From Tubiluchus corallicola (lineage: Eukaryota; Priapulida; Priapulimorpha; Priapulimorphida; Tubiluchidae): a stretch of 64,000 nt of DNA. The number at the start of each line of letters is the position of its first letter. The first letter of the stretch is position 1. The position numbers were made by a program, and so were the translations under genes. The notes beneath the pieces are model-generated. The model had not been told where the DNA came from and made no database searches. It saw nothing but the letters and a program-made list of their open reading frames with translations. This document shows, piece after piece, positions 28,611 through 56,575 of this stretch. Location of the stretch: positions 22,938 through 86,937 of the forward strand of contig JAQGDQ010000862.1 of NCBI GenBank assembly GCA_030141605.1. Reading direction: 5' to 3'.

Positions 28611-29918
28611 CTTTTGAAAGCAAAAACTCTCGCAGTTTTTGATGCAGTCGGAAACTAATAAGAAATTGTTCCACTTATCTGGAGGAGGACTCGAAAGCTC
28701 AATGCTCCTTCCTCCTCCACACAGTAACTCGTTTAGTTTATATATATTTTTTTCAATGTAATAACATTTGTATATATGTTTAAGTGTTTCTGTGGAATAA
28801 ATTCATAATTAAAAAATTCATAATTCAAATGTGACGTCTATCCAATTTATTATCTGTCACCATGTATTAAGTGCAGTAAGTATCGTTTAGCATAAAGTTT
28901 AATCTTTGTGTTTGTTGTTTTATTCTTACAACTAGAAACGAAACTTAGATCTTACAAACACACCAAAATGAATCATTTCTTTCTAATTACACTAACCGAA
29001 CTTCGAGACATAACCTTTAGATAACGTATAAAATAAATAAAAAATATTTTCAGTCTAATAGCTTTAAAAACCGCAAAACAACAACTTATTATATCAGTGA
29101 AGGATCTCAAAAGGTCAACAGGAGTGTGGGTGGGAGTGGGATTTGTTCGTTCTTATTTTTTGTTTAGGTCATATCAACAGGATGTCAAGGTGCAGTTTAT
29201 TACTTTGTAGATTCTAATAATTATTGACTTCAAGGCCAAGTTATGTAGTTTTGTTAATTGGGATTATCATGATTATTACAAAAGGAAAAGAATGCAGGAC
29301 GAGGAACAATTACTGCTGCATTGTGTTTAGGAAACTCCACAATAATTTTGTAACCCGCAATCATTGGTATAATAGTCAGTTTCATTGTACATTCGGATCA
29401 ACAAAAAACAAAGCATTTTGCTTATGAATGTTTTAGAATTATTTATAACTGTTGTGTATGTACTGTAAATAATCAATAAATTTACTACTCTTTATAAAAA
29501 AACAAAAAAGAAAGAAACTACCCGAGTCAAGGTCTGTCACCCATAGCTTAAAAACTTGAGTAAAAGGTTGAATGCCTTTTATAGTATCAAAATATATTAT
29601 TTCTTTCTTTTAAAAGTTTTCACCCTAACGGGTCTCAGGTTAGCAGCGGAAGTTTATTTGAACAGTTAAGTGAAAGTTCCTGAAAGGAATAATAATCTAT
29701 TGTTGAGACTTAAAAGAGCATTCAACGTATTATTCAAGCTAAAGCTGACAAGTCTCGGGAGCGCTCTCTCATAATTTAGGACTTAAAAACTTGGTTTGCA
29801 TAAATTGTATTTCAAAATTAGTGCATGTGGATAGTACATAAGGGTCAAGGACATTCATTATACTATTTAATTATAGGATAACACTCGTGTCCTGATTGAC
29901 AGTAAACATACTCATAAT

Positions 29919-29979
<61 letters not shown>

Positions 29980-30266
29980 ACACACACACACACACACTAA
30001 AATTATTATTTACACACGATGTCACGCATGGTAGATAAAGGGAAATATCAAAATCTCTCCAGGGTGCAAGTCTGCAAGGGGAAGTGAAAATTTTAGATTA
30101 GTACAACATGCCATTACTGCATGTATTACTGTCACGCGATAAAAACCCTCCTCACCCACCTGTGAGCTGAAGTACTAGTTCAAAATCAAGAGTTTCCAAT
30201 CATGCGCAGTTTGTCAGGAAGGTGCAAAAAGTTAGAACAAACCTTTAAATTCCTGGTTGTTCTTAC
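28611..30266. other. Unassigned; expected site of further Fringe exons, none found
   Basis: The minus-strand Fringe exons point into this stretch, so I searched it for the Trp-aromatic-Cys-His-Val-Asp-Asp-Asp block and later Fringe motifs on the minus strand and found none. An acceptor-like site (cttccccttgcag on the minus strand, near 30,078) is open for about 30 codons but does not encode a Fringe segment. The rest is AT-rich DNA. Confidence 0.45.
29925..29997. repeat. (CA)n microsatellite
   Basis: About 35 CA units with one interruption (cgaa) near the right end, located in the probable Fringe intron. Confidence 0.95.
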
Positions 30267-30369
30267 CTATTTGGTTGACGAAAAAAACCAAGAAGTTCTG
30301 CCTCCAACTTGCAGCATAGATGCCAGTGCAGATGACTAGGTGGACAGTTTGTGTTGATAACATGTTCTC
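30267..30369 (-). CDS. fng: Fringe glycosyltransferase, internal exon (third found)
   Basis: A 103-nt minus-strand exon with acceptor TTATTTTAG and donor GTAAGAAC. It encodes EHVINTNCPPSHLHWHLCCK then LEAELLGFFRQPN. The pattern H-x-I-N-T-N-C ... H-x4-L-C-C-K-x3-E is the Fringe block that lies just before the DDD metal-binding motif of this GT31 enzyme. Fringe adds beta-1,3-GlcNAc to O-fucose on Notch EGF repeats in the Golgi. The exon starts in phase 1, completing a Gly codon begun by the preceding exon, and ends in phase 2. The residues between the Asn-Cys and Cys-Cys sites (PPSHLHWH) are less conserved than usual. The following exon, which should bring the DDD motif, was not found in the window. 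Confidence 0.85.
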
Positions 30370-30519
30370 CTAAAATAACATGAACTGTGTCAAATAAAAC
30401 AGGTGCTAATATTTCTGCGTTGTCTAATATAGTCATTAGAGGATTAAACGGAGGATTAAACGAACAAACAAACAAGTAAACAAAAGAATAAACAAGAAGG
30501 CAACACGTAATAATTAAAC

Positions 30520-30578
30520 AAACAAATGAATGAATGAATGAACGAATGAATGAATGAATGAATGAACGACTAGAACAA
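30520..30578. repeat. (AATG)n imperfect microsatellite
   Basis: Runs of gaatgaatgaat interrupted by gaacgaa, within the Fringe intron between the second and third exons found. Confidence 0.85.
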
Positions 30579-30985
30579 GCGAACGAATGAATGAGTAGAT
30601 AAATGTGACACAAGGATAAAAACAAATACATGTAAGTGACGAATAACACTAGTAAAATGTTATTCAAACTAGATTTTATCCATGTTTTCTAAATTTTGAC
30701 AAGAAAAATGATAAAAAAATAAGCGATTCTTGGACAAAAATTTTGCAAAAACTAATAAACAAAAACGTCTATAAAGAATAACAACCTGTTATTTTAAGCT
30801 CATACCTGGTCAGAGATGCGCCTAAAAGAATTGGACTAAGATAGTATGTGCAATGGAAGACAGTAAATCTAAGTATTGAGGGAAATGGTGACTGTAGATT
30901 GAACTTTAGATTTTTGATTAGCATTACAAGAAACTCTGTATCTACGGCAGCCTAAAAAGTTTTTGTACTGATGCTGTATTATACT

Positions 30986-31068
<83 letters not shown>
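30986..31068. repeat. (CT)n microsatellite
   Basis: About 40 CT units with one ccct interruption, 180 bp from a Fringe exon. It creates an artificial Arg-Glu frame on the minus strand. Confidence 0.95.
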
Positions 31069-31072
<4 letters not shown>

Positions 31073-31246
31073 CTCTTTCTTTCGTAATTCGTAAGTGACT
31101 GTCGCTACTAATGCTATTTTAATGCAGCCTCCTTCCAGTAACCTCCTAAAAAATCGCCCCACTCATATGGCATGTTGTCTTTTTCTTCTGTTACCTGTGC
31201 TGAGGAAGCTGAACAATTGCAATTGTGCTAGAATATGAAAACTTAC

Positions 31247-31295
31247 CTGCTAATTCTTGAACTTCCTCATCATCTGCATCCGAGAAGAAAAATGT
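31247..31295 (-). CDS. fng: Fringe glycosyltransferase, internal 49-nt exon
   Basis: A micro-exon between acceptor GGAATTTACAG and donor GTAAGTTT on the minus strand. It reads TFFFSDADDEEVQELA plus the first base of a Gly codon. In Fringe this corresponds to the T-F-[IF]-F-[TS]-D-x-x-D-E stretch, the second strand of the Rossmann-like nucleotide-sugar fold. It begins in phase 0, matching the end of the exon at 32322, and ends in phase 1, matching the exon at 30369. The joined reading RSQ-TFFFSD...ELAG-EHVINTNC is continuous, which is strong evidence of real exons despite the small size. This exon is too short to be noticed by an open-frame search. Confidence 0.85.
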
Positions 31296-31618
31296 CTGTA
31301 AATTCCAATAACAATGAGTCGACAATAAATTAATAATGAAGAAGAATTGCAATTATTGAAACATAATATCTTTCTTAAACATTTTAGTTTGTACATTTTA
31401 AGCCCCTTTAATAAGCTTACCTACGTATGAACAGCAAAAAGTAGTCTTGTGTAAGTAGACTAAATCTGAGTAGTCATGGATTTAGTGATCACAGTGAAAC
31501 TACGCCAAAACTGGTCGGTAAATGCACGGATGACTGCTTGTAGAAAACTGCTTCTGGGTGGTTTTATGTGTCATACGGTATTGCTTCGTCAAGGGACTGA
31601 ACGTTGCCAAATCACCTC

Positions 31619-32096
31619 TCTTGATCAATGTCTTATCTCTTCTGCTGATCAGTATCTTGTCTCCGCTACTGCTCAACATTTATCTCTTATGCTGGCCATT
31701 ACCTTATCTCCTCTGATGTTCAGTGTCCATTTTCCTCTGCTGGTCAATGTTTTAGCTCCTCTGCTGGTCAATATTTATCTCCTCTACTAGTCAATAACTT
31801 ATCTTCTGTGCATTGTCAATGCCTTACCTCCTCTGCTGGTCAGTGTCTTACCTCCTCTACTAGTCAATATCTTATCGCCTATGCTGGTCAATGCCTTACA
31901 TTCTCTGCTGGTCAATGCCTTATCTCCTCTGATGGTCAGTGCCTATTTTCCTCTGATGTTCAATATCCAATCTCCTCTGCTGATCAATGTCTTTTCTCAT
32001 TTGATGGTCAATGTCTTACCTTCTCTGCTGGTCAATGTCTTTTCTCCTCTACTAGTCAATATCTTATCGCCTCTGTTGATCAATATCTTATTTCAG
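31619..32096. repeat. 24-bp minisatellite, about 20 units, in a Fringe intron
   Basis: Degenerate array with consensus close to tctcctctgctggtcaatgt + ctta. Units differ by substitutions (tactagtcaat, gatggtcagt, gatgttcaat) but the period is held at 24 bp. Because 24 is a multiple of three, several plus-strand frames stay open and show an 8-residue repeat of the LTSSAGQC type. It lies between two Fringe exons on the opposite strand, so it is intronic and I do not call it a gene. Confidence 0.9.
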
Positions 32097-32321
32097 AAAA
32101 TTGTCCAGAACAATGAGGATGACACTACTGCCATAAATATTTACAAAAAGATGGCTTTCTATTAAGTGCATTAGTGCATTTATAAGTGCTGCTTACCAGC
32201 TTGCAGGGTACCGAGCTGCATAAAAATACCATATCATACCATACCATGATATACCACATCCACACTGCAACAATTTCATTCCTCAATAGAAAAACTTGCA
32301 CAATAATTATGCTGGATTTAC

Positions 32322-32515
32322 CTGGCTTCTGGCAGTTTTGAACCAAGTATTGAGAATAACCTTTAACCTAGAGTGATGCAATGAAGCTGCTGTCTTTACA
32401 CTGATGTACACATCGTTCAATTTTACAGGAAAGGAATTGAGTCTCGTCTGGGTTACGTCTGCAAGCGATTGAAATGATCTTTCGTTCTCCACCATTTTTG
32501 CCAGCAGATCTTGTC
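32322..32515 (-). CDS. fng: Fringe glycosyltransferase, stem and first conserved exon
   Basis: The minus-strand frame reads QDLLAKMVENERSFQSLADV, then a short linker, then LNDVYISVKTAASLHHSRLK and VILNTWFKTARSQ. The D-[IV]-[FY]-I-[SA]-V-K-T-x5-H-x-x-R-L ... T-W motif is the start of the Fringe catalytic domain; the upstream part is the luminal stem. The donor GTAAATCC follows Gln in phase 0 and fits the next exon at 31295. The 5' limit is less certain: an acceptor (caacaatttag) would place it at 32515, but the frame stays open upstream for about 40 codons without an ATG. The signal-anchor exon of this type II Golgi protein should lie at higher coordinates and was not found. Confidence 0.85.
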
Positions 32516-33067
32516 CTAAATTGTTGCCTCGATTTAGAAAAAGAGAACATTTAAACCGCTTTAAGAGAACTTTCTTGTGCGTTTGGTCATTCGTCTGGCA
32601 GAACCATTTTGCACGAAGTATAATTGTACATTACAAAAACGCTACGATCAATAATGCGCGAACATAATAAGTTTCGCATCGTTTAAGGCTTCAAGGCCTT
32701 ATATATTGTAATAGGCGTTTTATATTTTTTAGGTAAAATATCCTAAAGTTAGCATGGCGAATTACACCATTCGCAACTCGTCCTATGCCCGTCTTTTCAA
32801 GTAATGTTTTACCATCTTAGAGACTATTCTCGTGAATTAAAGCCATTTGTGTAATTTTAGAGAAAATTCGAGTTGCGGAAGAGACATGTTTTACAGAAAA
32901 CTATTCCATGCTTATTAAACTCTTTGCAACCTATAGGTTTCAAATAATATAATAATTTTTTGCCGATAATTTGAACACAAATCGATTTAGTGACATTTTA
33001 CCCAGTTTATTAAAAATAATAATTTTAGTTTTCTTAACATTCACCGTTAATTACCACTTGGAAATTA
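32516..33067. other. Unassigned DNA upstream of the Fringe exons
   Basis: No exon with a hydrophobic signal anchor was recognised on the minus strand. Confidence 0.35.
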
Positions 33068-33480
33068 TCAATAGAATAATATTGAGAACAATGTTGCGCT
33101 GATTACGCAGCCTTGTTTAAGGCCTACAATACTTTTGAAAGGAATAGGTGACCCATCTATAATTTTTATAGAGTAATCATAATTACTTCTCATGTCAGTA
33201 ATAATTGCTAACGTTTTACCTACAATTCCATACCACTGCATTTTACAATATAGAGCCTGATGGTAGACAGAGCCGAAATCCTTTTTTATAATCAACAAAA
33301 CATTTTACAGTTGTCATTTATTACAAAAAATCTATTATCGATAATAGTGTTCAATGCTAGGATGTAGTCAATTTCATGTGCTCCTTTCTAAAGCCAATTT
33401 TTGTTTGATGAATAACATTTCTGTTTTCTAGGTATTTACTCAAACACTCGAACAATTTGCAGAAAAAAGTCGAGATAGTT
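33068..33480 (-). pseudogene. LINE reverse transcriptase fragment
   Basis: Minus-strand reading gives, from high to low coordinates, CKLFECLSKYLENRNVIHQT then KIGFRKE. After a frame change come IIKKDFGSVYHQALYCKMQW, YGIVGKTLAIITDMRSNYDY and VGLKQGCVISATLFSILFY. These are consecutive RT blocks: the fingers (the IGFRKG-like motif), the first catalytic Asp region (usually DYKKAFDSV, here KKDFGSV) and the [VL]xQGCxxSxxLFS block. The palm motif with YADD is missing, so the copy is truncated at both ends. It is probably from a jockey- or RTE-like LINE but different from the intact element at 37.7-40.9 kb. Confidence 0.75.
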
Positions 33481-33818
33481 ATTTGCAGATAATTAGCAGA
33501 TTCGCTTTTAGAACCTGTTTTGTGCAAGGATACAGTAGTCTAAAACTTTCTGAACACCATGTAGGATATTTATTTCATGAGTAAATTAGGTTAGTAACAT
33601 AGTAGTAACTTAGTAATCAACTTAATAACATAAGGAGCCATAATTGTTATCGTAACTTTAATGCACACTTTAGAAATGACTATGTGTGTTAGTTATTTAT
33701 TTATTTATTTAAAGCTTTGTCAAATCGTAGCTGGAATGAGAGGCTTCAAAATAAACGATTCGCTTGCCCTGTGAAGTAGTCGAAATTTATCAGATTCACA
33801 TCACATCACCACATTCAT
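33481..33818. other. Unassigned stretch
   Basis: Contains a short (TTTA)n at about 33,690-33,712. No gene was seen. Confidence 0.4.
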
Positions 33819-34069
33819 CAGAGCCAGTTTATCCTATAGGCTAGCATATGCTGCAGCCTAGGGCTCCTCAAGCTTTGCTAATATTTTTAAATTCTTTGCT
33901 AATATATGTGCTAATTTGTTGGTATTTCTTATATAAATTATAAGATATATAAGTTATATAAACGTTGCTGAAATTTCCACGTGTTAAAATATGCAAAGCG
34001 GGCGCGGGCGAGTCAGGCGGTGGCTCCCTCTTAGCCTACGGCCGGCAAAAGGTCATAATCCGGGCCCTG
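33819..34069. mobile_element. Small hAT-like non-autonomous element
   Basis: The left edge reads CAGAGCCAGTTTATCC and shares with the inverse of the right edge (CAGGGCCCGGATTATGACC) a CAG-GCC-G-TTAT pattern. Both are followed inside by a TAGGCTA phrase and a run of GGGCTCC/GGGAGCC. Imperfect termini starting CAGRGCC are typical of hAT elements. No clear 8-bp duplication flanks the pair, so the copy may be old or the ends may come from different copies. Confidence 0.5.
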
Positions 34070-34966
34070 AATATAACAATTTTTGGTGGGAAATTGTTGC
34101 GGTTCTTCATTGTGATTACGGAACAGGATTCTTCCGCAACATGGTAAATTAATGGCTTTGGATTATTCTGCTCAATTTTATAAGAGTCTGAAGATTTACT
34201 ATAAACTTTGTATTTGGTTTTTGCTTTATGTGATGAGCAATTAATCTGCATTTAATCCTATATTACTTGGATAAAACGTACACAATATCATATAACATAC
34301 TTACGTATAATAGATAATCCTAAAAACAAAATTACAATTAAGACTAGAGTAACCTTCCGCCGACCAGCATTCCGCTCTCCGAATTGAAATGACGTCATGT
34401 TAAGTTGTTAATCATCATTATAACCGTTTATCGCGAATACCTGCAGCACTGTGGGCAAATGTTAGCTCATTTGAAACTTCTCAGATACTGACACAACAAA
34501 TCATCACAGATCAGGAAACAAAACTCCCCAAAACACTAATGCAAGTAGAGAATGTCTTTCTAATCGATAATCAATAATATATATTTTGATCAATAATCGG
34601 TTATAGCTAAATGCTAGTCAACTCCTAGCCTTCTGTACTTTCACACGTCGATGTTTTTTCCATTTCTCTCGCCAGCGATTTCCATGTTCTAGCTTCAACT
34701 CAACCAGAAACTGACCCTATGGTCAGCGGTCAAACCTCAAGCAGCTGAGCTCATCGTCCATACAACCTATATGAATTATCACGCGCGAATGTAGTTACCC
34801 GCTACGAATATTTTAAGCTTGATGAGTTCCTGCAGTAGCAGCAACAACTATGCTTTAAAAACGTGCAATTTTACATGACTTAATGAAATCACTACGCAAA
34901 CAAACGGCAAATCACACCAGCTATGATAAGAATAAATGGTCGAATATACCTACCTTCCTGCTAGGA
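34070..34966. other. Unassigned stretch
   Basis: No gene is supported. Contains TGACGTCA at 34390-34397. The sequence immediately right of the small hAT-like element shows no obvious target duplication. Confidence 0.35.
34959..34966. repeat. hAT target-site duplication, left
   Basis: tgctagga, immediately before the left terminus CAGTGG; identical to the right copy. Confidence 0.9.
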
Positions 34967-35599
34967 CAGTGGTTCCCAAAGTAGGGGTAAATTACCCCTC
35001 GGGGTAATATGGTTTTTTTGAGGGGGTAACGGGCACCCCTCTGAAAATTTTTAAAACTTCGCTTGGAATGCATTTTACGTAGTTTTCTTCTTGAAGAGAC
35101 TGCCTCCGGCAGGCAACATTGTGTCATGGGGTCCATCATTCGCACGTTCCCATGATCTCTGGTGCTATCCTGGGGAGAAGTCAAAGTTCATGATTGTTTC
35201 TTTGGTTTCTTCTCTATCGACATTTCTGCACAGAGTTTAGAGTTTAGAGAAAGCTAGGACCCAGGATTGAGAAACTGGCGTCCGAAAAACAGGCTCATCC
35301 GTCCCACTAACTGAGATTTTGTTGTTGTCATCAATTTCTTCTTGTTTTCGTTTGTTCGAGTAATAATTACTCGAACGAACCTGCTCACTCAGTAATGAGC
35401 AGGTTCAGTAATTGTAATTCTTGTTTTGGCAACAATACAACAACACCTGGAAATTTATTTATGTCACGAGCAAACATAAATAATTTTTCTTGCTTGAGGC
35501 ATATACGTGTGTTTCCTTTTTGAGTTGGAGAAGTAGTACTAGGTGGCGGGTAATGGACACGACTGGGTTTCCCGAGTTGGGTAAGTTTGGGAACCACTG
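34967..35599. mobile_element. Non-autonomous hAT transposon, 633 bp
   Basis: Both ends carry CAGTGGTTCCCAAA in inverted orientation (14 bp perfect, then diverging). The insertion is bracketed by a perfect 8-bp direct repeat, tgctagga, at 34959-34966 and 35600-35607. Matching termini plus an 8-bp target duplication are diagnostic of the hAT superfamily. The interior has no transposase domain; 87- and 70-codon minus-strand frames touch the ends but carry no hAT dimerisation or DDE motif. It was presumably moved in trans. The perfect duplication argues for a fairly recent insertion. Confidence 0.9.
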
Positions 35600-35607
35600 T
35601 GCTAGGA
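35600..35607. repeat. hAT target-site duplication, right
   Basis: tgctagga, immediately after the right terminus CCACTG; identical to the left copy. Confidence 0.9.
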
Positions 35608-35780
35608 GGACTTAATGTGGAATATGTGAAATCATTTTTAAAAAATCACTGTCACGTACTTTTAAACGCGTGAAAAACGTATTTCATAAACAAAGCAGAT
35701 TCCCGGGGTGATGATATTCATACAAATAATGTATTTGTCGCTTATAAATAATTTTCTAGTAAAGCAGTTAAATAGGTAAC

Positions 35781-35960
35781 TAGGTAGGAAGGTAGGTAGG
35801 TACATAGATAAGTAGGTAGGTAGGCAGGCAGGTAGGTAGGTAGGCAGGTAGGTACATAGGTGAGTAGGTAGGTAGGCAGGCAGGAAGGCAGGCAGGCAGG
35901 TAGGTAGGTAGGTAGGTAGGTAGGTAGGTAGGTAGGTAGGTAGGTAGGTAGGTAGTTAGT
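35781..35960. repeat. (GGTA)n microsatellite
   Basis: About 180 bp of GGTA/GGCA units. The left half is variant-rich; the right part (about 35,900-35,955) is a near-pure run. Confidence 0.95.
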
Positions 35961-36214
35961 TTTAGGTAGGTAGGGAGAGAGATACAGACAGACTTACAGA
36001 TACATGAATAGTTCTTTTATTAAAATCAAATTATAATTTTGATGTTCTATAGATGTAGTACATAGAACATCTGAGTACATAGATGTTCTATTTTTGGCAA
36101 TTTTCGCTTGGAAAACTGCTGACGCAAAGCCATTGTTGAGATGCTCAAGCAGCTTTACTTACGCCGCTTCTTCTATGTTATGATGTTATAGATAAAGAAA
36201 CGCTTTATTTTTTC

Positions 36215-37742: not shown

Positions 37743-38762
37743 TCATCTGTCAGCCGGCGAACACTTGATAACGTCTCTCCAGGTGTCTCTGTCTTCATAC
37801 GTCTTCTCCTCCTCCACATCCACCAGTCGGATTCCTCTCCTCGCAAGCGCCTCTCCAACTCCATCAAGCCATCTCTTCCGGGGCCTTCCCACTGGTCTTT
37901 TGCCTTGCGGCTTCCATTCAAGATATTTCTTTGCCAATCTCGTGTCGTCCATCCGCTTAATATGCCCATACCACCTCAACTTGCTCTCCTCAATCTCTCT
38001 CAAGAGTGGTTTCACTGAGAGGTCTGACCTTATCTGTTCACTTCTGAGTCTGTCTATCCTTGTTCCACCCCTTATAGTCCGAAGAAGTTTCATTTCCGCT
38101 GCCTGTAGTCTTGAGGATGTCTTCGTTGTAAGTGACCAACATTCAGCTCCATATGTTAGTATTGGTTTCAATATTGTGTTATATATAGTTGTCTTGACTT
38201 GCTTGGGTATGCACTTCTCTTTCAATAGGGGATACATCATCATAAAATTTCTTGTATATTTCTCAATCCTCGCACTCAACTCCGTTTCCTGAATATTTCC
38301 TTCATCTACAACCACCCCAAGGTATTTATAGGAATTTGCCTGGTGCAGCTTCCTGTCTTCCATATACACATCAAATTCCTCTCTTCTACGGCTTATGTGC
38401 ATGAACTCAGTCTTTCCCTTTGCCGTGTTTATGCTCATTCCATTATTATTCATTGTTGATAACCATGAACTGGCCACACCCTGCAGTTCTTGTATGGTGT
38501 CCAACATCACCGCCACGTCGTCTGCGTAGGCGAGGACTTGCTGGTTTGGTCGTGGGTTTGTATCTCTGATGCACTTGTCCATGAATATGATATATAGGAG
38601 CGGGGACAACCCGTCTCCTTGTCTTACACCTGCTTCGATGTTAAACCAGTCAGTCTCCACGTCTCCTTTTCTTACCTTACTCACACTATTGCTATAGATG
38701 CTCTTGATAACTCTTATCAGCTTTTTGGAACAGAATACGGCTGCTCCGACATAATCTTCCAA
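37743..38762 (-). pseudogene. LINE polyprotein, RT palm/thumb and C-terminal part
   Basis: This 339-codon stretch continues the RT of the upstream frame after a frameshift. It contains GVRQGDGLSPLL (residues about 45-56) and the catalytic YADD (79-82), then the template-handling GMSINTAKGKTEF and SYKYLGVVVD blocks, the thumb and a conserved tail (LRWYGHIKRMDDTRLAKKYL, GKRPVGRPRKRWLDGV). All catalytic residues seen are intact. The start given is not a true start: the reading overlaps the preceding frame by 46 nt near DRVPRK. The enzyme as encoded is split, so this copy is probably immobile unless the shift is an assembly error. Confidence 0.85.
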
Positions 38763-40558
38763 AGCAGCTTTCTTGGGACACGGTCAAAAGCTTTCTCCAT
38801 ATCAATGAAGAGAGCAAATTTGTCCCTTCCCCACTCCCAGCTTTTCTCCATTATCATCTTCATCACAAACACAAGATCTGATGTACTTCGTCCTGGTCGA
38901 AATCCGTACTGCCATTCTCCCAATCTAGCCTCGACATGTGTACGAAGCCTCCTCTCGATTATACTACTGTATAGCTTTCCACAGTGGGACAATAGGGAAA
39001 TGCCCCTAAAATTTTCACAAAGAGCTTTATCTCCCTTTTTAAATATCGGGCTAATGACTCCTCTCTGCCACTCTGGTGGTATAGTTTCTTGTCTGTACGC
39101 GTCCTGCATTATGGTTAGCAGGAGCTTCTGCGCCTCCTCCCCAGCTTCCTTCACAACTTCTACAGGGAGGTCATCATCTCCTGTTGCTTTACCTCTCTTC
39201 ATCCGTGTTATGGCCCTCGAGATCTCAGCTCCCGTGATGTCCTCGATGAGTTCATTCGGGTCGATCTCTAGGTCCACATCCACTTCCAATTCTTCACTTC
39301 CTCGTACGTTGAGCAAATCATCAAAGTATTCTCTCCATCTGTTAGCGATGTCATCTGGTTGCACAAGCAATTGTCCATTTTGATCTTTAATTGCGTAGGT
39401 TTGTTCTTTAGCACTACTTCTGTAATTCTTTGTCATTGAGTAAAGCAATTTCTTTGTTCCTGCATGGTCAGCCTTCAAATCCTCTCCGATGTTTTCCCAC
39501 ACTCTATTCTTTTCTTCTTTCTTTACTTTTTCAGCTCGATTCCTGGCTAGTTCGTATTCTCGTCTATCTTCGGGTCTTCTTCTCTTCATCCACTTTCTAA
39601 ACCATCCCATCTTCTCTTTAACTGCACTCTTTACTGCTTCCGTCCACCAAGGTGTAGTTTTCTTCCTTCCTTGATACGACTTTTTAGAGCCCAATGTATC
39701 TGCTGCGGCAGATGAAACGATTTCTTTATATGTTTCCCAGTCTCTATTTTCAGCTTCCACTATTTTGTTGTTTATAACTTCTCTCATAGTGTCGGCAGTT
39801 TCTGAGTCTCTCAATTTTTCTATATTAAATCTCTGTTTCCCCTTCTTTTTCGGTAGCTTTTCTGTTTTCCATGTCAGTGTTGCTATCACCATTCTGTGCG
39901 TGGAGTCCATAGACAGCGATGGCACAGCACGCACATTCTGGAATATTCGCTTGTCTGGGGTCAAAAAGAGATCTATCAACGACTTGCTGACGTACTGCTG
40001 CGCTTCGCTGTTCCAACCGTAGTACGTCCATTTATGACTATCTCGGTGTTTATAGAAGGTATTCATTATAGCCAACCCGTTTAGTAGACCATAGTCAATT
40101 ATCCTGCCTCCCTCCTCATTCCTGTCGCCAACACTAAATGCTCCGACCACTGTTTCAACGTGATCTCTCACACATCCAATGTGTCCGTTGAAGTCTCCAC
40201 AAACTATTAATTTTTCTTTGAATCTTGCTGTATCTGTGACATCTTGTAGGTCCTGGTAAAATTGATCTTTTTCCTGGGATGATCTTCCACTTTGCGGGGC
40301 ATAAACCTGAATTAAGGAAAAGGCCACTGTCTTTGTCTTGATGGAAATACCAATGATTCTCTCTGAGACACTATCAACCTTCTCCACATAGGGAGCCAGA
40401 TCCGGTGAAAGAACTACTCCAACACCGTGCCTCCCATCATCCTGTCCGCTGTAAATCAGTTTGTAGTTTTCATGCAGGATCTTTTCTCCACTACCCCTCA
40501 TCCTGGTCTCACTGAGACCAACAATTGCGAGATTCCTGTCTTTCATTATATCCACCAC
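38717..40558 (-). pseudogene. LINE polyprotein, endonuclease and RT N-terminal part
   Basis: A 613-codon frame. Residues 1-230 form an exonuclease-endonuclease-phosphatase domain: Glu in LSETRMRG (15-22), GDFNGHIG (121-128), the SLIDLFLT block (193-200) and the catalytic DSTHRMV (218-224). A basic Lys/Arg-rich linker follows. The RT begins near residue 430 (GAEISRAITRMKRGKATGDD), then WQRGVISPIFKKGD, FRGISLLSHCGKLYSSIIER, YGFRPGRST and the first catalytic Asp in FALFIDMEKAFDRVPRKLLW. It runs out of frame just after that. All endonuclease residues look functional. The 5' start is displaced by another frameshift; the natural N-terminus lies in the frame at 40509-40712. Confidence 0.88.
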
Positions 40559-40712
40559 CTCTTCCTCTCATCGTTGAAATGTTAATTATTGCAATTTTGA
40601 ATTTAGTTGCCTTTCTACTCCTGGAATTCATGGCACCGGAGATTCTTAGCACCCCCTGCCCATTTAAGGGCTGCCGGGGACTGGGGGCCGTTGTTTCAGT
40701 TGTGTTCGCCAT
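40509..40712 (-). pseudogene. LINE polyprotein, N-terminal leader
   Basis: Opens with an ATG at 40712 (MANTTETTAPSPRQPLNGQG) and reaches FKIAIINISTMRG, the usual first strand of the endonuclease domain (K-I-x3-N-[VI]-x-T-[ML]). A single-base frame change in the run gaggaagaggtggtgg near 40,555-40,570 then moves the domain into the frame of the 613-codon stretch, which continues with VVDIMKDRNLAIVGLSETR. This shows that the element's protein starts at 40712, not at the first Met of the longer frame. Confidence 0.75.
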
Positions 40713-52380: not shown

Positions 52381-53549
52381 ATGTCGATCGTCGACTGTGA
52401 TCAATATTCTCTATCAAGTATCGTTGAAATTAATCTGAAAGAGGCCAAACATTTGTTGCTATGTGCATTAATATTTATTTCATGTTATTTAATAATAAGC
52501 CATTTCGCTCAACAAAATTCAGTGCAACATTTACAATACAAGCAAACGTGGCACTGACTGCTTGTGGTAATGAGTCACGTGTTCTGGAGCAATTTTTGGT
52601 TGTGGTAAAATCCTCACTCATGATGACAACACCTTTTATTAACTTTCACATTTTTGTTGATAACGAAAATACAAGAAAAAGTGCAATCAAAACGCTAAGT
52701 GAAATGAATTTAACAAAATCATTTAGAGCAAACTTTTACCGTCCCTGGTATCCTCCAGGTGAAAATTACACCAAGTGGCTGAACCCGGGAAAGAAACGTT
52801 GCAATACAGCATGGCTGTTCCTACCAGATGTTTTATCAAACGTGGACAAGATTTTGGCTATTGATTTGGACGTTATTGTGTTGAAGCCTCTAGAAGTATT
52901 GTGGCGCCACTTTGAAAATATGTACGAATCTCAGATGATGGGTCTAGCGTTTGATTTTCCTGGACCACATAATTCTCGTCTGCGTGACCGTTATCATAAT
53001 TATGGTTATCATCAACAAACAAAGCCAGAATCATTTCTTAGGCCATTTAAGGGTTTAAATTCTGGAGTAGTTTTACTGGATTTGAACAAAATGCGAAAGT
53101 CAAATTGGAAAACAGAAATAACACGAATATTTAAAATTACTAGTGAATGCAGACCAGGTAAAAGAAGTTTTCCAGCCTGTTTGATTCCCCAAAATACTTG
53201 CAATGTCTATTTTCACGAGAATCCGGAAAGGCTGTACTTTCTTCCTTGCCACTAGAACTTCTGGTGGAGGCAGGGCGTCTCTGAAGAAGTGTGTAATACT
53301 GCTCAAATGCATGGAGTAGCAATTTTACACGGAGCTGGTGGCACGTTCTACAATACAGAAAGAAAATGTTCTGCCTTTTTTCATGTATTTAATCTTTTTA
53401 AATCTGTGTATTTAAATGAAACAAGAGATTCATTTATTGAAAAGCTGGAGAAATTTCGCAATCATACTTTATTTCACCTCAAAGATTCTACGCTGCTTAA
53501 GTGTACATTTATTGTAGACTCTATTCTGATGTCTCTATATGGCATATAA
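52381..53549 (+). pseudogene. GXYLT: Glucoside xylosyltransferase-like GT8 gene, interrupted
   Basis: An ATG at 52381 opens 58 codons with a type II signal anchor (hydrophobic residues 25-40, LLLCALIFISCYLIIS). The frame then stops at 52555-52557, while the catalytic domain continues one frame over from about 52,545. Its blocks are VALTACGNES, FHIFVDNE, FLPDVLSNVDKILAIDLDVI with the metal-binding D-L-D at 52863-52871, GLNSGVVLLDLNKMRKSNW and YFHENPERLYFLPC. In-frame TAG at 53253-53255 falls where relatives have Trp (P-C-x-W-N). Translation then resumes to VAILHGAGGTFY (the His-Gly block) and ends at 53549. The family's G-D-Q-D is I-P-Q-N here (53184-53195). GXYLT adds xylose to O-glucose on Notch EGF repeats in the ER/Golgi. 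Three separate lesions argue for a pseudogene. It is intronless throughout, so a retrocopy is possible, but no poly(A) tail was seen. Confidence 0.85.
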
Positions 53550-54484: not shown

Positions 54485-55995
54485 CTGTGTAAACATTAGC
54501 TTAAAATAAAGAATTTTCTAGAATATTGAAAACTACAATAGCTTTTTTTAAATCAAGCTCAGTTTAAATAGCGATTACCTCGATAGCCAAATTTTGTTAA
54601 CCTTTCAAAGGTACGCGAGGCTTAGTAAATCTACTAAAAGATTTGGCAACGGTTGCTTTTTGTCACAAAAAGTAAACATGGCGGAGAAATAGAACCAGTA
54701 CGGTGACAACAATCATCATGAATTGCAGCGTTAGTTTCTGACGACATACGATGCAGAGCACATTTTCGTGACATCAGGCGTTTAGGCAGGAAGTATAAAG
54801 CATGTTCATGACGATCAGTCTTTTGATCGTGTCAAACAAAACGCCTCCCTGGTTAAATGTTTGCGGAGAATGATAGGTGTAAAATTTACTGAAATTATAA
54901 GTTATTATGTATTGTAAGATATTATTGTTGAAGTTATTACAGCAAAACTGTATAATGTCAAGTGTGGTATGTTCAGAATGTTCAGCGCCTGCCTGTTCTA
55001 ATGGTGGCCAAATAAACCTGCAGATGTGTCTATGCAAAAATTTTCAGTAAACCCAAAGCTATTACAACAATGGTTAAAAAAATTGGCAGAGAGAATTGGA
55101 CATCCTAAAGTCTTTTGTGCTCTGAGCGCTTCGTACAAGAATGCTTTGTTGAAAGAAGCGTATTCTACAGGTTGAGTGAAGAAAAACGAAGGCAGTTGAA
55201 ACCTTTTGCAATTCACATAATTTTTAACATCCCACCACAGCAACAGTGAAAAGGTTTTGTAAAAGCACAGTTTGGCAAATAATTATAAACAGTGATTAGT
55301 ACATTTAAAATTAAATTAAATTTAAATTAAAAGTCGAATGAATTTAAGATGTCGTTTTCCAGATAGGCTAATATCTGGCTAGACTAGGACAAACAGGTTT
55401 GTGGGTTACAGTGCCGTGGACTCCTCCTGCAATATTCTAGTTTAGCTAAACAAATTTTAACACTTACAGGGCATTCAATAGATTAACCACAGTTCTTATT
55501 AGAGAGCATAATTTTATATAACATCATTTATGTTACCTCTATACCTAATAATAAATAATATATATATATTATATTATAATATATATATATAATGTATCTG
55601 CATCACATTTTCGATTTGACATGGCACAAATGTTTGCTCAACTGACCTTACGCCTTACCAGTAATTATAGCTAAAAACGGAGTGAATATCGCTAGTTCAA
55701 TAAATCACTATGGTTGATAAATGCTACATGACTTTGTTGATTTGTAAATTGCAAAATACCGTTGTCATGTTAACTCGTATAATTGTCAATAAAAAGATTA
55801 TTATTTACATGCAGTTGGACGATTCTGCAAAGTTTATGTGTGCTTCACAAGGGCGATTACGGTGGTTTCATCCCTATTGGAAACAGTGGAGCAGCTAAAC
55901 CTGCGTCACAACCACATCAGAGAAGCAACAATTGCTTCCATGTTTTTAATTACAGTTTCAATTTAGCTAAGAACAGTAATTTGGAATACTGCATA
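54485..55995. other. Unassigned stretch
   Basis: No supported gene. A 45-codon plus-strand frame near 55,032 (MQKFSVNPKLLQQWLKKLAE) looks helical but is isolated. A TA-rich tract lies at about 55,550-55,592. Confidence 0.35.
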
Positions 55996-56023
55996 ATTTG
56001 GAATTTGGAAAAGCATGTCACAC

Positions 56024-56436
56024 CACAGAGCGTCCAGCAAACCACACCACAGAGAGTCCAGCATGTCACACCACAGAGCGTCCAGCAAACCACACCACAG
56101 AGAGTCCAGCATGTCACACCACAGAGAGTCCAGCAAACCACACCACAGAGCGTCCAGCAAACCACACCACAGAGAGTCCAGCATGTCACATCACAGAGAG
56201 TCCAGCAAACCACACCACAGAGAGTCCAGCAAACCACACCACAGAGAGTCCAGCATGTCACATCACAGAGAGTCCAGCAAACCACACCACAGAGAGTCCA
56301 GCAAACCACACCACAGAGAGTCCAGCATGTCACACCACAGAGCGTCCAGCAAACCACACCACAGAGAGTCCAGCATGTCACATCACAGAGAGTCCAGCAA
56401 ACCACACCACACAGAGTCCAGCATGTCATGCGGCTC
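56024..56436. repeat. 24-bp VNTR, 17 units of two alternating types
   Basis: Tandem array of cacaccacagagagtccagc + a 4-base variable end. Units are of two types by their junction: catgtc (type H) or caaacc (type Q). Seventeen full units are seen. The sequence is open in several frames on both strands because 24 is divisible by three and the unit has no stop codon. The frames of 143-232 codons covering it are therefore artefacts. The right flank enters inverted module R. Confidence 0.95.
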
Positions 56437-56439
56437 AAG

Positions 56440-56575
56440 AAGATAGGTGGCGTCAGTATGGTGTTCAGTTATGATGTTTGATGGCAAATAATGACAACCT
56501 CCAGCTGTGATGACGGCTATGCCAGTTTGCCTGCACACCTAAGCTGATATGTTTAAACTAATGGGTTAACATCTT
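56440..56575 (-). repeat. Repeat module R, copy 4 (inverted)
   Basis: Inverse of 18,180-18,310, sharing long identical phrases such as cacacctaagctgatatgtt and actaatgggttaacatcttg. Confidence 0.85.

Follow-up and report, generated by a model that had tools for sequence, protein, structure and literature searches.

The window, that is, the whole stretch of DNA analysed here, comprises 64 kb at the right-hand end of contig C373 (86,937 bases; assembly of 343.5 Mb) and carries the 5' exons of a Fringe gene copy on its minus strand. Three of these exons, which the preliminary description had read as minus-strand segments with AG/GT borders and fitting phases, one of them of 49 nt, indeed have canonical borders and join in frame, from A to B in phase 0 and from B to C in phase 1. 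Exon A (32322-32515, minus strand, 194 nt; TTTAG before, GTAAAT after) encodes the stem and the beginning of the Fringe domain (LNDVYISVKT...), exon B (31247-31295, minus strand, 49 nt; TACAG before, GTAAGT after) encodes TFFFSDADDEEVQELA, and exon C (30267-30369, minus strand, 103 nt; TTTAG before, GTAAGA after) encodes HVINTNC...LCCK... and ends in a phase-2 donor; if left unspliced, it runs into an in-frame stop after N-R. The intron between A and B contains a 24-nt minisatellite of about 20 copies (31611-32091), an array that is shorter in the paralogue on contig C454 described below. The first coding exon was sought by an ad hoc scan for an ATG followed by a hydrophobic stretch and a phase-1 donor, applied first to C454. 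In the window it occupies positions 34305-34398 (exon 1, minus strand, 94 nt) and encodes the start codon, a short basic cytosolic tail and the hydrophobic anchor VTLVLIVILFLGLSII before a phase-1 donor, GTAAGT; it differs from its C454 counterpart at 2 positions and the donor is identical. Judged by phase, exon 1 would join to exon A, in which case the hydrophobic stretch behind a basic tail corresponds to the type II membrane anchor of the Fringe family, and since the start codon and anchor lie at 34398-34305, the gene copy would begin inside the window.

The 114-residue peptide joined from exons A to C matches the Pfam Fringe profile (PF02434; cut-off 21 bits) with an E-value of 1.9e-24 (86.8 bits) over profile positions 3-79 of 250, and exon A on its own reaches 9.7e-9. 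Among solved structures the best match is mouse manic fringe (2j0a/2j0b; 6.2e-19 to 2j0a), to which 81 residues align gap-free across both exon joints, and the next transferase, a beta-1,3-glucosyltransferase (12em), follows at 0.0052, so the peptide is closer to Fringe than to the remaining beta-1,3 transferases. Both searches bear out the earlier assignment of the segments to Fringe (GT31). The likeness to manic fringe ends there, however, as the mouse protein has the catalytic part and the window copy does not.

According to PMC2770060, bilaterians generally possess Fringe, Caenorhabditis and Helobdella being among the exceptions, and the sponge Amphimedon has it too. The genome examined here holds three other Fringe genes, on contigs C968, C941 and C454 (genome-wide Pfam Fringe search with all 32 of 32 candidates scored and 20 Pfam matches), and a DNA search with exon A yielded two candidates, both scored, which place this exon on C373 and C454 only. 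The C968 gene, for which exons A to H were all found, encodes a protein about 40% identical but has the same A/B/C exon cuts, including a 49-nt exon B at the equivalent place and in the same phase, and C454 carries exons A, B and C at 93, 98 and 99% identity, respectively, with a single difference in exon C; the exon match is therefore not due to chance. Exons 1, A, B and C of the C454 paralogue share their phases and donors with the window copy, but whereas the latter ends after exon C, the former continues with exons D (DDD), E, F, G, G2 and H, of which G2 is a candidate picked from two script-generated ones for continuing the manic fringe alignment. The DDD exon of C454 lies at 352111-351964, about 2.0 kb after exon C, and the motif follows exon C in C968 as well, in the position anticipated by the preliminary description.

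No such continuation was found in C373. Exons D to H were not found in the 53 kb from exon C to the contig end, including exons E to H, which would supply the catalytic aspartate (LPDD) and the metal-binding histidine (FHSH); of the nine DDD triplets on C373 in six frames none has a Fringe context, and tblastn of the contig with exon peptides from C454, C968 and C941 returned matches at chance level only. Catalytic exons had been proposed to lie more than 30 kb away or to have been lost; the DDD exon, sought to the left of 30.2 kb and beyond the window, was not found as far as the contig end, and loss is the alternative that fits. Placing the catalytic exons farther left on C373 was rejected, as the best D-exon match scores 20 bits and the weak matches have the wrong strand or position. 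Orphan catalytic exons on other contigs were likewise rejected, since the 20 Pfam matches include a single D exon for each of C968, C941 and C454; the detailed look for them covered the Pfam-listed contigs apart from C387, C1826, C716, C1089 and C1349, and the loci L003, L007, L008 and L020, also among the matches, presumably resemble core-1 galactosyltransferase or chondroitin synthase. In human LFNG, a figure legend in PMC11919168 assigns active-site roles to D201/D202, D290 and H314. Lacking the Mn2+/UDP-binding aspartates, the catalytic aspartate and the Mn2+-binding histidine, the window copy could not be a Fringe enzyme, and because the catalytic half is absent, transfer of GlcNAc to O-fucose on EGF repeats would not be expected of it. 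As tentatively placed on these sequences, the LFNG residues D201/D202, D290 and H314 would all fall in the missing part.

The extent of the shared sequence was defined by blastn of all 86.9 kb of C373 against 100 kb of the 511 kb of C454. A block at 29929-36040 (minus strand), holding exons 1, A, B and C together with roughly 1.6 kb of sequence that precedes the start codon, is colinear with C454:353688-359331. Directly to its left, a piece of about 1.3 kb at 28664-29920 (plus strand) matches C454:349961-351219, in the C454 intron that follows the DDD exon, in inverted orientation at 92% identity; beyond this inverted piece, no colinear homology to the compared 100 kb was detected outside 29929-36040. 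A (CA)n array (29919-29997) marks the left edge of the duplicate and a (TAGG)n array (35773-35974) lies beside its right edge. The first 165 nt or so of the inverted piece are a dispersed repeat with at least 38 other places in the genome, and the whole piece occurs only on C373 and C454 among the 40 of 402 candidates scored. On these grounds a mobile element was rejected as its source, albeit not with certainty, and the piece would, with the same reservation, be part of the C454 intron that ends in a repeat. Overall, the locus is a partial, intron-containing copy of a gene that is complete elsewhere, from which essential exons are missing, as is characteristic of pseudogenes and of gene fragments in segmental duplications.

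We consider it probable that the Fringe of the window is a 5' partial duplicate that has lost its catalytic half and is an ordinary broken gene copy, probably a pseudogene. This reading builds on what is observed at the locus, namely the exons, their homology, the absence of the later exons from the contig and the breakpoints. It retains the Fringe identity, strand and exon order of the host gene first proposed here but not its status as a working gene, as the copy looks like a truncated duplicate. A block of about 6 kb that spans the upstream region, exon 1 with the anchor and exons A to C would have been copied from the C454 paralogue or share its origin. Where the DDD-exon segment would be expected, part of the following intron lies in inverted orientation, and exons E to H are gone as well. 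The completeness of the C454 gene suggests that copying proceeded from C454 to C373, the rearrangement may have involved breaks at the simple repeats, and the product presumably lacks function. If transcribed, it could yield a protein of about 147 residues with intron C unspliced, comprising at most a Golgi-anchored stem and the initial third of the transferase domain.

The main doubt about the duplicate is that an assembly error may lie at the two repeat edges, C373 then being a chimera of unrelated sequence and the second allele of the Fringe locus on C454. We regard this as unlikely, even though the block has a simple repeat at either edge, (CA)n at one and (TAGG)n at the other, and a divergence of 7% is conceivable for the alleles of a very heterozygous animal. 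An allele should continue into the DDD exon, but the block passes into the inverted intron piece instead, and no second long copy of the C454 exon E/F region is seen among the 40 of 654 candidates scored, where the best other match is shorter than 400 nt at 79% identity. Moreover, the C968 and C941 exons and the C454 DDD exon occur once each in the genome Pfam search, so that this search gives no sign of second alleles being retained in general.

Comparison of the two copies bears on whether the truncated duplicate could have retained a role. C373 and C454 differ at 17 of 438 coding positions and at 340 of 4636 aligned noncoding ones (7.3%; binomial P 0.002), with 5 differences in the last 252 coding nt (P 0.00015) and no coding indels (P 0.014), and the reading frame, start codon and all splice sites of the window copy are intact. 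All 11 changed codons in the anchor and stem part are nonsynonymous, with none synonymous, and in the transferase part three changes are nonsynonymous and two are synonymous; dN is 0.045 and dS 0.021 across the 438 nt, yet coding sequence is less diverged than noncoding. The pattern speaks for constraint having acted on one copy or both. Constraint on the C454 side alone, modelled as half the rate over the last 252 nt, is still compatible with the data (P 0.098), and as C454 may account for all of it, the low coding divergence does not demonstrate a functional window copy; by the same token, an intact frame with low coding divergence means that decay after duplication is not demonstrated either. 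As C454 and C968 both read GGHVINTNC, the change of G to E before HVINTNC would have arisen on the C373 side, if that form is ancestral. A functional short protein, in which the anchored stem and N-terminal half are expressed and act on full Fringe proteins, for instance as a decoy or as a partner in their complexes, would account for the intact frame, start codon and splice sites, for the roughly 1.6 kb of upstream sequence kept and for the lower divergence of the transferase part, but the exclusively nonsynonymous changes in the anchor and stem and the excess of dN over dS are as under weak or no constraint, and we find this proposal very improbable. Slightly less credible again is a young gene whose catalytically dead, Golgi-anchored half-Fringe would tune Notch glycosylation by competing or pairing with the full paralogues.

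The remainder of the contig is consistent with a broken gene copy. A GT8 glycosyltransferase copy at 52434-53547 (plus strand; Pfam 6.9e-9; best solved match LARGE1, 1.3e-7), which we take to resemble GXYLT, matches contig C982 over 3.7 kb with 136 differences in 3611 positions (gaps excluded); compared with the C982 frame, which is open, it shows a deletion of 16 nt and contains an in-frame stop. Nine further places on nine contigs, about 690 nt or more each at 70-76% identity, indicate that the GT8 family is large in this genome. C373 was rejected as a haplotig of C982 (94% over 3 kb), as only 3.7 kb matches C982 (40 kb of 181.6 kb compared, partly masked). Just upstream of the Fringe block lies a LINE-like element (37743-40567, minus strand) whose two overlapping frames encode an endonuclease and a reverse transcriptase, and LINE-type and other reverse-transcriptase fragments are found nearby. 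An element of about 4 kb to the left of the window (C373:2620-6635) has many 98%-identical copies in the genome and has therefore been recently active. Rfam and ARAGORN (run with the bacterial code) gave no match in the window. C373 thus looks like repeat-rich DNA in which two or more gene copies are broken, in keeping with a pseudogene. The window copy could instead be a genuine allele of the C454 locus, rearranged by deletion of the DDD exon and an inversion, and not a locus of its own. Such an allele is suggested by the lost DDD segment and inverted adjoining intron piece, which resemble a deletion with inversion inside the C454 gene, but it is about as improbable as the young gene, for the rest of C373 shows no further colinear homology to the 100 kb of C454 compared and its GT8 copy matches C982, not C454.

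As a truncated duplicate, the window copy joins the three other Fringe genes of this genome, which is ordinary biology and means little by itself. The gene model could be read correctly from exon phases alone, and annotators should be warned against listing the locus among the working Fringe genes. Should the half-protein be expressed, it would provide a natural experiment on the capabilities of Fringe outside its catalytic part. Among the relatives, C454 has FHSS where C968 and manic fringe have FHSH, and two extra residues precede its WCCHFDDD. The histidine at the FHSH position binds Mn2+ in LFNG, and the C454 Fringe may be a changed or dead enzyme. In the C941 gene, exons A, fused B and C, D, E and F were found in the 20 kb searched of its 34.8-kb contig, and since B and C form one exon, the intron 3' of the 49-nt exon is absent there. 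Elsewhere in the window, a short-unit tandem array at 55950-56481 reads in several frames as repeats such as HTTESPAN.
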